This document shows, in pieces, positions 23,869 through 36,750 of a stretch of DNA of 36,750 bases. Origin of the DNA: a virus. The position numbers and the translations under genes are program-made. How positions within the stretch are numbered: position 1 is the stretch's first letter; the number at the start of each line of letters is the position of its first letter. The notes below the pieces were generated by a model that searched no databases, was not told where the DNA came from, and saw only the letters and a list, made by a program, of their open reading frames with translations. The stretch spans positions 1-36,750 of IMG/VR virus record IMGVR_UViG_3300033145_002341, one strand, 5' to 3'.

Positions 23869-24201
23869 CTACTCCAAAGGATTCTCTTCTTCATTTCTTC
23901 TATTAATCTCATCATCATCCTGCTGGGCCTGAAGCCTATCCTCCTCAAAAGCAAACTCCTTATCTTTCTTTCTTTGCTCACTTTCTTTCTTTTTACAGCA
24001 AGACTTCGGATCATCATAACTTCCAGAATATTCAAAACTAAAACTTGTGTTACCTGTCTCTCTTAATTCTCTTTCCATTCTTTCAAATTCAATACCAATC
24101 TCAGAATCAGTTAAATTTTTAATAGCAAAACCTTTTTCACAAAATTTAACTAATTCTTTTAATGCTTCCAGTTTATATGTACCTTCACTTATTTTTTTCA
24201 C
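23869..24201 (-). CDS. Hypothetical charged protein
   Basis: 110 residues from GTG at 24201, overlapping the methyltransferase stop by four bases with GAGGTGATG upstream. N-terminal helices (LEALKELVKFCEKGFA), a Cys pair in 'KSCCKKK', and a highly charged C-terminus (QAQQDDDEINRRNEEEN). Function unknown. Confidence 0.6.
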   Translation of the reverse strand: MKKISEGTYKLEALKELVKFCEKGFAIKNLTDSEIGIEFERMERELRETGNTSFSFEYSGSYDDPKSCCKKKESEQRKKDKEFAFEEDRLQAQQDDDEINRRNEEENPLE

Positions 24202-33377: not shown

Positions 33378-33671
33378 TCACCCTTTAATTTTATTTAATT
33401 TTTCAAGTACCATATTTAACCTAAAATCATTAGTTAATTCAATTCTTTTCATAAGTATTTTTTTAATTTCTTTTCTTGAAAACTTATATTCAAGCCCATC
33501 AAAATTAGAAATATCATCAAGCAATGCAAAATAATTTTTTATAGTTATTTTAGTTCCACCAAGATTTAATCGAACCATCTTTTCTATTTTAGGCCTAGTC
33601 ATTACAAAACCTTGAATTTCAATAAATTCATCAATTAAAACACTCAAAAGTTTATCTATTGTAGTTTTCAT
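33378..33671 (-). CDS. First gene of the early operon, hypothetical
   Basis: 97 residues. 'TTIDKLLSVLIDEFIEIQGF' and 'IEKMVRLNLGGTKITIKNYF' suggest a helical bundle; the second part has 'FSRKEIKKILMKRIEL'. A DNA-binding regulatory role would fit its place directly behind the control region, but no helix-turn-helix can be claimed with confidence. GGTGATC before ATG. Confidence 0.6.
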   Translation of the reverse strand: MKTTIDKLLSVLIDEFIEIQGFVMTRPKIEKMVRLNLGGTKITIKNYFALLDDISNFDGLEYKFSRKEIKKILMKRIELTNDFRLNMVLEKLNKIKG

Positions 33672-33714
33672 TTTAGATCACCATTTTAAATTATATATTT
33701 TATATAATTAATAT

Positions 33715-33735
33715 ATTTACTTATATAAATATCTT
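33715..33735 (-). promoter_or_regulatory. TATA-box promoter of the early operon
   Basis: Minus strand GATATTTATATAAG, ~50 bases upstream of the ATG at 33671, followed by AT-rich sequence (AATATATTAATTATATAAAA) similar to that in the two duplicated promoters. Predicted start near 33697. Confidence 0.6.
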
Positions 33736-33738
33736 TCG

Positions 33739-33795
33739 TTTATTTATATTTATATAGAGAGATAGAGGGAGGGGTCATAGTTCCCCTATTATTTT
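33739..33795. repeat. Left arm of a long imperfect inverted repeat
   Basis: Starts TTTATTTATATTTATATA, then GAGAGATAGAGGGAGGGG, then TTCCCCTATTATT. The reverse complement of 33948-34000 gives the same string with a few differences and short gaps. The arms are separated by ~152 AT-rich bases without a gene. Confidence 0.75.
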
Positions 33796-33871
33796 ACAAA
33801 CACAAACAACAAACCTAAAAAATAAATAATGGTGGAATAAGAACATATATATATACCTTTGAAGCTAAATT

Positions 33872-33889
33872 GATTCACGCTTTTTACAT
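33872..33889 (+). repeat. Iteron-like repeat 1
   Basis: GATTCACGCTTTTTACAT. Related copies: 33900-33917 and 34198-34215. Confidence 0.55.
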
Positions 33890-33899
33890 TAATTTTTTT

Positions 33900-33917
33900 A
33901 ATCAAACTTTTTACAAT
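33900..33917 (+). repeat. Iteron-like repeat 2
   Basis: AATCAAACTTTTTACAAT, 28 bases after copy 1 (start to start); core CTTTTTACA is shared by all three. Confidence 0.5.
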
Positions 33918-33947
33918 AAAAATATTATAACAGGAATTTTTTTAAAG

Positions 33948-34000
33948 AATAATAGAGGAAGTGTACCCCCTCCCTCTCTCTCCATATAAATATAAATAAA
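33948..34000. repeat. Right arm of the long inverted repeat
   Basis: Reads AATAATAGAGGAAGTGTACC, then CCCTCCCTCTCTCTCC, then ATATAAATATAAATAAA: the inverse of 33739-33795. Its last part ends 8 bases before the stop of the Cys-rich gene at 34008. Confidence 0.75.
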
Positions 34001-34007
34001 AAACAGA

Positions 34008-34181
34008 TTATTTTGAAGAAAAAAACCGATTCAAAAACTCATCATCACACTCTTTCGTAGCATTACAAATACAAATTCGTTTTTGCAAAACTTCTAAAGA
34101 ATCAGAATAAGCAGATTTTTTTGCAGTCTTAAATGAAGAGATTGATCCACACCTACGACATTTGCATGATTTAACTCCCAT
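34008..34181 (-). CDS. Small Cys-rich protein next to the control region
   Basis: 57 residues from ATG at 34181: MGVKSCKCRRCGSISSFK, then 'ICICNATKECDDEF'. Six Cys (C-x-C-x-x-C and C-x-C-x5-C) suggest a zinc site. It is convergent toward the right arm of the inverted repeat and divergent from the plus-strand regulator. The upstream area has an iteron-like repeat. A DNA-binding regulator is possible; the ribosome-binding site is poor. Confidence 0.5.
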   Translation of the reverse strand: MGVKSCKCRRCGSISSFKTAKKSAYSDSLEVLQKRICICNATKECDDEFLNRFFSSK

Positions 34182-34197
34182 TTGAACAACAAAGAAT

Positions 34198-34215
34198 GAA
34201 TCACACTTTTTACAT
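34198..34215 (+). repeat. Iteron-like repeat 3
   Basis: GAATCACACTTTTTACAT, matching copy 1 at 15 or more positions. It lies 17 bases upstream of the Cys-rich gene start, so it may instead be an operator. Confidence 0.5.
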
Positions 34216-34303
34216 ATAATTAATACAAAACTTATTTAAACACCATATATAATATATATATATCATATTAATAATGTATTTATTACTTAAAGAGGGATAA
34301 AAA
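34216..34303. promoter_or_regulatory. Divergent promoter region
   Basis: 88 AT-rich bases between the minus-strand Cys-rich gene and the plus-strand regulator. Minus strand shows GTTTAAATAAG (TATA-like, ~58 bases from that gene's ATG); plus strand shows CCATATATAATATATATATA ~50 bases from the regulator ATG, then AGAGGGAT as ribosome-binding site. Confidence 0.45.
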
Positions 34304-34444
34304 ATGAGGCCATCAAGAGAAATAGACGGAAAACAAAAATTAATCACACTAGATAAAAAACTAGTAATAAAAGCAGAAAAACTTCACTTGAACCTATCAA
34401 GTTTTTTTAACGAAGAACTAAAAAAATACTTAAAAAATAAATAA
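34304..34444 (+). CDS. Ribbon-helix-helix regulator (CcdA/CopG-like), only plus-strand gene
   Basis: 46 residues: MRPSREIDGKQKLITLDKKL, then 'VIKAEKLHLNLSSFFNEELK'. 'QKLITLD' fits the DNA-contacting beta strand, 'KKLVIKAEKLHLN' helix A and 'LSSFFNEELKKYLK' helix B of the ribbon-helix-helix fold. Such proteins are dimeric repressors or antitoxins. No toxin partner is next to it. It lies opposite to all other genes, beside the control region, so it may repress early or late promoters. GAGGGAT precedes the ATG. Confidence 0.7.
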   Translation: MRPSREIDGKQKLITLDKKLVIKAEKLHLNLSSFFNEELKKYLKNK

Positions 34445-34537: not shown

Positions 34538-34792
34538 TTACCCCACTAACTTCAACGAACCATGTTTAATTAATTCAGCTGCTGTTTGTTTTGGTTTTAA
34601 ATCATCGATTGTTGGAACAATAACATTATCCCAAATCTGCCATGACATTACTGCAATTATTGTATTTATTGTTGGATCTGTTAATGGAACACCATTAACT
34701 GTCATAGCAATTATTTGACCTATAGCCATTCCAGCAATAACTGCTGAACCTGCAATCAATTTTTTCCCTAATCTTTCAATAAAATTCCACAT
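34538..34792 (-). CDS. Small membrane protein, holin candidate
   Basis: 84 residues from ATG at 34792 behind a strong GGAGGAATAA; an open stretch upstream to 34855 overlaps the previous gene and lacks a site. Hydrophobic 'LIAGSAVIAGMAIGQIIAMT' and a weaker 'INTIIAVMSWQIWDNVIV' may form two membrane helices. It ends the late operon, next to the XhlA-like gene and the transglutaminase-like enzyme: a lysis cassette in layout. The holin function is inferred. Confidence 0.5.
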   Translation of the reverse strand: MWNFIERLGKKLIAGSAVIAGMAIGQIIAMTVNGVPLTDPTINTIIAVMSWQIWDNVIVPTIDDLKPKQTAAELIKHGSLKLVG

Positions 34793-34805
34793 ATTTATTC
34801 CTCCA

Positions 34806-35054
34806 TTAAAAAAATATTCTTGATAAATAACCAATAATAACCCCACCAACAACAACCAAAGTAACCATTTTTATTTTAAACGGCAAATAATCATTTATTT
34901 GAAATTCGTCAAATTTATTGGCTTTTTTAATCAAAAGTTCTATTGCTTTTTGATGTTGTAGTATTGTTTCATCTCTTTTTGCTATCCAAATTTTAATCTC
35001 CATCAATTCTTTTTGAATCGCATTTAACTTATTATGAGTTTCATTATCACACAT
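34806..35054 (-). CDS. XhlA-like coiled-coil membrane protein
   Basis: 82 residues from ATG at 35054, ten bases after GGAGG; a TTG nine bases earlier is too near to that site. N-terminal coiled coil (THNKLNAIQKELMEIKIWIA) and one C-terminal membrane helix (MVTLVVVGGVIIGYLSRIFF). This layout is that of XhlA/haemolysin-type phage proteins that help holins. Here it sits between the enzyme and the holin candidate. Confidence 0.6.
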   Translation of the reverse strand: MCDNETHNKLNAIQKELMEIKIWIAKRDETILQHQKAIELLIKKANKFDEFQINDYLPFKIKMVTLVVVGGVIIGYLSRIFF

Positions 35055-35986: not shown

Positions 35987-36297
35987 TAAATCAAATCCGG
36001 AAGTATATAAATTAACTTAGTTGATCTCGCAGTAATTGTTTTTGTTGAATAAACTATTTGAAGTTCATAATTATATTGGCCTACAGTATCAAGATCACCA
36101 GTAATAAACGTATAATGACAAAGGCCTGAATTTGCAGTATCAATTGTGCATGTTCCAGACGCTTTAGTTTCAACCTTTCCAATCCTTGACATCTTAAAAG
36201 TTATTATGCTACTGGTTAAATTTATTGCATCTCCGTTTGCATCCTTTACTGCAAAAGCCATGTCATACCCATAATCATTCCTTATAAACTTTACCAT
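35986..36297 (-). CDS. BppU-like Ig-fold baseplate/fibre protein
   Basis: 103 residues from ATG at 36297 (TGATG overlap with the fibre stop, GGTGG upstream). 'GYDMAFAVKDANGDAINLTS', 'CTIDTANSGLCHYTF' and 'VGQYNYELQIVYSTKTITA' match the N-terminal Ig-like domain of BppU-type baseplate proteins. It directly follows the fibre gene and probably belongs to the tail tip. Confidence 0.65.
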   Translation of the reverse strand: MVKFIRNDYGYDMAFAVKDANGDAINLTSSIITFKMSRIGKVETKASGTCTIDTANSGLCHYTFITGDLDTVGQYNYELQIVYSTKTITARSTKLIYILPDLI

Positions 36298-36750
36298 CAA
36301 ACCACCCGTTCACCATTGTTAGTAACAACTGCAAAAACTTCATTTTCTTCTACTATAATTGTAAATGTTTCGTTTTCTTGAACAACAACTGTAAAAACTT
36401 CATTTTCTTCTACAGTGATTGAATCAAAATCAATTATTTTTTTAATAAAATTTTCAATTAATGAAAACCCATCTAAAATATCTCTACCTACTTTTTTTGT
36501 AAATGTCTCCACTGTTGAAATAACATCTGAAATATCTCTGCCCACCTTTTTTGTAAATGTTTCTCCAACACCAACCACATCTGCAAGATTAAAAGTTATG
36601 GCTCTCTTATCAGAATCAAGCAAATCAATATTATCAGAAACATTTTTAATTGGATTTTTACTCAAAGAATCTACTTCTGAAAGTGCGTCTTCTAAAGTTC
36701 TACCTATATTTTTTGTAATTATTTCATCAGTATTTATTGTGTCTGTAATC
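36297..36750 (-). CDS. Tail fibre C-terminal part (enters from right end)
   Basis: The frame is open from the right edge for 150 codons to TGA at 36297. It contains KNPIKNVSDNIDLLD, which is identical to the sequence near base 75-115 in the fibre N-terminal part. Further repeats follow, 'ETFTKKVGRDISDVIST' twice, then three ~10-residue units (EENEVFTVVV, ENETFTIIVE, EENEVFAVVT). It is most simply the C-terminal end of the fibre that starts at 1773. Codons start at 36749, so a direct join with base 1 is out of frame. Confidence 0.7.
   Translation of the reverse strand, partial: ITDTINTDEIITKNIGRTLEDALSEVDSLSKNPIKNVSDNIDLLDSDKRAITFNLADVVGVGETFTKKVGRDISDVISTVETFTKKVGRDILDGFSLIENFIKKIIDFDSITVEENEVFTVVVQENETFTIIVEENEVFAVVTNNGERVV

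Follow-up and report, generated by a model that had tools for sequence, protein, structure and literature searches.

Genes and features of the junction

The window analysed here, of 36,750 bases, corresponds to one IMG/VR virus record, whose genes for a terminase, for capsid and tail proteins and for a portal joined to a Mu-F-like domain assign it, by gene content, to the tailed viruses. GGTGAT-type ribosome-binding sites precede many of its genes and, together with BRE/TATA promoters, mark the host as an archaeon, judging from these signals. A search of the portal against genome contigs returned no match, and a terminase alignment against the same kind of target gave one weak MAG match, which a whole-genome search did not uphold. 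Nearly all genes read leftwards. The truncated open reading frames at the two ends (1-1773 and 36297-36749) have the repeat SKNPIKNVSDNIDLLD in common. The contig was probably opened within a single repeat-rich late gene, and the window is probably a complete, circularly permuted genome. Since both contig ends cut what appears to be this single gene, the map very probably closes into a circle in which the lysis genes at 34.5-36.7 kb extend the late operon, so that the inverted-arm locus sits where the late module ends and the early operon starts. The features of this junction, which lies 12 kb from the terminase gene, are compiled in Table 1.

Table 1. Features at the late/early junction of the window.
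Feature	Position	Strand	Remarks
First gene of early operon	33378-33671	-	97 aa
Predicted early promoter	33720-33738	-	CGAAAGATATTTATATAAG, BRE + TATA; abuts/overlaps outer end of left arm
Left arm of inverted repeat	33727-33793	+	TTTATATTTATATA half, GAGAGATAGAGGGAGGGGT half, then TTCCCCTATTATT; self-BLAST, gapped alignment
AT-rich gene-free spacer, candidate DNA-unwinding element	33794-33947		154 bases
Direct repeat, copy 1	33870-33892	+	TTGATTCACGCTTTTTACATTAA
Direct repeat, copy 2	33897-33919	+	TTTAATCAAACTTTTTACAATAA; 27 from copy 1
Right arm, inverted copy	33948-34013	-	TTTATATTTATATG, GAGAGAGAGGGAGGGGGT, TTCCTCTATTATT; self-BLAST, gapped alignment
57-codon ORF	34008-34181	-	CxC/CxxC zinc-knuckle motifs; flanked by right arm and RHH gene
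Direct repeat, copy 3	34196-34218	+	ATGAATCACACTTTTTACATATA; upstream of 57-codon ORF
Ribbon-helix-helix (RHH) protein	34304-34444	+	46 aa; CcdA-like PF07362, 21.6 bits, just below Pfam cut-off of 22.4
Small hydrophobic protein	34538-34855	-	End of lysis/late module

The early operon, running leftwards from 33671, begins on one side of the arms, as the preliminary description had it, but the plus-strand gene that was placed on the other side is separated from the arms by the 57-codon minus-strand ORF. An AF2 single-sequence model of the 97-aa early protein reached a pLDDT of 54, too low for use. The in-frame codons 5' of the 57-codon ORF (34182-34226, minus strand) read ICKKCDSFFVVQ; they add a second CxxC pair, which completes a full zinc ribbon, but offer no ATG, GTG or TTG start, and the third direct repeat overlaps them. 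The small hydrophobic protein appears holin-like by position and composition. A promoter role of the region is likely, and the BRE/TATA element predicted at the left arm occurs twice in a relative (G002).

Inverted arms, spacer and direct repeats

When the region was compared with its own record by BLAST, the arms paired at 82% identity (E 1.7e-12), and a gapped alignment extended slightly beyond the arms had 62 identical columns out of 77; they had been described as near-perfect, which they are not, and they are somewhat longer than claimed. The repeat itself is real. The stretch 33672-34007, which is 77% A+T, gives an inverted-repeat score of 84 against a mean of 47.5 and a maximum of 66 in dinucleotide shuffles, and none of 500 shuffles reaches it. 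No other long-range inverted repeat in the record scores as high as the arms (35.5 bits, the runner-up having 26.4), while in records without such an element the best scores are mostly 20-25 bits. The spacer is gene-free as claimed, with no ORF of at least 50 aa. Opposite-polarity arms, a spacer of this length and an AT-rich region reproduce the recognition-element layout of archaeal origins, the likeness being one of architecture only. A search of IMG/VR records with the arm sequence found no conserved copy and a single match, in L005, inside a reading frame.

The 23-base repeat, with the core CTTTTTACA, is confirmed in three copies; they are clustered, the rest of the window lies more than 4 mismatches from their consensus, and the bare 9-mer is found additionally at 23989. 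In the loci fetched from relatives the 23-base repeat was absent. These copies would most likely be bound by a regulator, for instance the RHH protein.

Origin recognition boxes at the same junction in relatives

Single-protein searches of IMG/VR for close relatives found none. Terminase alignments reached L011/L012, L039, L040, L041 (record G002), L042 and L043, and a capsid alignment led to a family represented by at least 222 loci in IMG/VR, many of them in records of 34-42 kb; the late/early gene junction was read in the long records of this capsid-defined family. An RHH-type gene adjoins it in the window and in G002, G037, G039, G042, G044 and G045. Two of these records, G002 and G045, have the identical length of 34,074 bases though they are clearly different relatives, probably a coincidence, and in G002 a tRNA gene (L041 8993-9065; Rfam RF00005, 59.4 bits) precedes the terminase gene by about 1 kb.

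Pairs of Orc1/Cdc6 origin recognition boxes (ORBs) stand at the junction of G039 (L167), G042 (L176) and G044 (L179), with TTTCCATAGGAAATGATGGGGGGT / TTTGGAGTGGAAATCAAGGGGGGT and GTTGGAGTGGAAATGAAGGGGT as examples. With a matrix built solely from published ORBs (sequences from PMC4153887), the pairs score 47.6, 37.7 and 49.3 bits, respectively, compared with 25.5 bits for the next best pair among 109 loci and a shuffled maximum of 23.4; single clear boxes reach 18-31 bits in G039 and G044, and the two boxes of G042 score 29 and 8. All three pairs are inverted, with their G-strings outward and AT-rich DNA between, and lie just upstream of the leading RHH-type early gene, with lysis-end late genes on the other side. 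Inverted ORBs flanking AT-rich DNA are a known plan of archaeal origins (PMC6742236), and their occurrence here suggests that these three members may use the host Orc1/Cdc6 directly. In the window, on the other hand, the control region scores at best 0.5 bits against the ORB consensus CTTCCAGTGGAAACGAAAGGGGT, so the comparison with host ORB sequences that had been proposed turned out negative.

Other junctions of the family hold divergent elements. Between its RHH gene and early operon, G045 has three direct 45-bp iterons with inverted copies, an arrangement reached by 2 of 500 shuffles. The junction of G002 carries 39-nt arms, 85% identical and 138 apart, and that of L011/L012 carries arms of 24-28 nt about 200 apart, which differ between the two loci yet stay self-complementary (23/24, and 25/25 with a 3-nt insertion); cross-pairing drops to 22/28 and 19/25, so the arms appear, from these comparisons, to have changed in concert. 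An inverted repeat was first suspected in every family member, but 36-46 of 500 shuffles of their own AT-rich junctions reach the repeats of G002, L011 and L012, which leaves these individually weak; the case therefore depends on the ORB pairs and on the repeats of the window and G045. What is conserved is position and architecture, whereas the sequence of the arms and of the CTTTTTACA motif is not, so that one part of the refutation set out beforehand has come true.

No evident element was seen in the parts of the G037 junction that were read, and none was found at the junctions of G040 and G043. The latter encodes a D5-type primase-helicase and may for that reason initiate differently. Strong inverted copies in G040 (L171 58-555) were set aside because they lie in coding DNA; these 48-nt copies (58-105 and 508-555) end in GWGSSGSGSVLGVRFVRKLK, a second related gene stands at the other contig end, with a related coding copy near L172 19550-19768, and the whole may be an inverting or duplicating gene cassette. 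In G041 the late/early junction includes a comparatively G+C-rich, structured-looking stretch (L174 14030-14200) with no Rfam match.

Initiator genes and strand asymmetry

The earlier statement that no initiator was found in the genome holds in the profile results, in which the window gave no Orc1/Cdc6, MCM, PolB or D5 family. Orc1/Cdc6 (TIGR02928) was found in 0 of 15 records, the ORB-bearing relatives included, so that a linked orc1/cdc6 gene was recognised in none of them, and MCM and family-B polymerase were likewise not recognisable in the 15. Among the window genes scanned there was no Rep protein, and the direct repeats are three scattered copies, where an iteron/Rep origin would have several tandem repeats near a rep gene. 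GC skew, which had been suggested for locating the origin, gave no origin signal: it does not change sign, and at four-fold sites it forms only a gradient, which gene expression could explain.

Interpretation of the junction

Taken together, the late (lysis)/early junction is probably a replication origin that also carries the early promoter. This reading of the window follows from the position and architecture of its element and from the ORB pairs of relatives, and the junction is best read as the origin of the family, fired by the host replisome. In the window a G-rich inverted repeat would take the place of the host boxes. The earlier alternative of "origin or master switch" thus gains from the ORB pairs and repeats at the same junction in relatives and from the BRE/TATA promoter, and loses from the lack of an ORB and of a skew signal in the window and from the unconserved sequence of the arms and motif. 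A DNA-binding initiator would recognise the arms as a pair of elements in opposite orientation, the AT-rich DNA of the spacer would melt, and the host MCM helicase and replisome would be loaded there. Early transcription would start from the promoter bordering the left arm on its outer side, a position through which initiation and early transcription could influence each other. As the arm-binding protein, a host Orc1/Cdc6 paralogue is slightly favoured over a small DNA-binding protein encoded by the virus. Under a more specific and rather improbable version, the two inverted arms of about 66 bp, which are not ORBs, would be read by a small viral protein (RHH, zinc-knuckle or 97-aa), the initiator site having been replaced in place while other family members use ORB pairs at this locus to recruit the host Orc1/Cdc6.

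The same features could belong to a transcriptional master switch only, in which the RHH, zinc-knuckle or first early protein binds the arms and the 23-base repeats as operators and so controls the early and the RHH/57-codon promoters, with replication starting elsewhere or by another mode (e.g. recombination-dependent). The predicted early promoter abutting the left arm, the RHH-type gene beside the junction in the window and the relatives listed above, the G045 iterons directly after an RHH gene, and the third 23-base repeat between the divergent RHH and 57-codon ORFs would all suit such a role. Operators of RHH proteins, however, are usually short tandem or palindromic boxes, unlike 66-base arms 154 bases apart, and three relatives have an origin signature, the ORB pair, at this locus, so that we regard a switch without an origin as possible but doubtful.

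We consider it unlikely that the arms act as RNA, pairing into one long stem of the early leader, or of a free RNA, within a leftward transcript from a promoter upstream of the 57-codon ORF. The minus strand of 33736-34006 does fold to -81.4 kcal/mol (z -8.3), 4 of the 10 arm substitutions in the window would give G-U pairs if the minus strand were the RNA and 1 if it were the plus strand, and the concerted changes in L011/L012 would fit a stem too. Yet a DNA inverted repeat folds strongly on either strand, the plus strand having a z of -7.7, and G-U pairs on the early strand number 0 in G002, L011 and G045, against 2, 1 and 1 on the other strand. As the arm differences outside the window thus do not favour G-U pairs on the early strand and either strand folds well, this explanation is somewhat weakened; furthermore, the arms of the window stand upstream of its early promoter, and Rfam gave no match. 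A terminator was ruled out by the distance between the arms. An old inverted duplication decaying in AT-rich intergenic DNA, or a recombination or packaging site with no initiation role, would accord with the near absence of the arm sequence from other IMG/VR records and with the modest repeats of G002, L011 and L012, but is highly improbable given the shuffle result, the rank of the repeat in its record and the conserved locus, with no invertase recognised among the genes scanned and the terminase far away.

How tailed archaeal viruses without a replication gene begin to copy their DNA is largely unstudied, and in a large survey of archaeal tailed viruses (PMC8651126) the terms origin of replication, Cdc6 and MCM do not occur. 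The present comparison singles out a syntenic locus in a family of more than 200 loci; three members have ORB pairs there and others divergent elements, so that the use of a host initiator and its replacement become testable by comparing neighbours.

Comparison with known origins

With archaeal ORB-type origins, such as Sulfolobus oriC1 or the ORB pairs of Methanomassiliicoccales (PMC4153887), the probable origin of the window shares two inverted elements around AT-rich, gene-free intergenic DNA. It departs from them in that its arms are off the ORB consensus, no orc1/cdc6 gene is linked, and the G-runs point inward, in contrast to the outward runs of the ORB-bearing relatives. Because the architecture agrees but the ORB sequence test failed, the window is not filed as a member of this class. 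Iteron origins of plasmids and temperate viruses likewise have short direct repeats beside an AT-rich region, comparable to the 27-bp spacing in the window and the 45-bp units of G045; the window, however, has just two copies between the arms and one 277 bases away, with no Rep recognised. A parallel in sequence comes from Haloarcula hispanica, where a G-rich inverted repeat, GGGGAGGGGG ... CCCCCTCCCC, enhances oriC1 (PMC3936714). The window has GGGAGGGG on the left and CCCCCTCCC on the right, i.e., the same polarity and a near-identical core. The haloarchaeal enhancer sits just inside two ORBs next to cdc6, whereas the repeat of the window is without flanking ORBs and its arms include TATA-like halves. 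The likeness is best taken as a lead.
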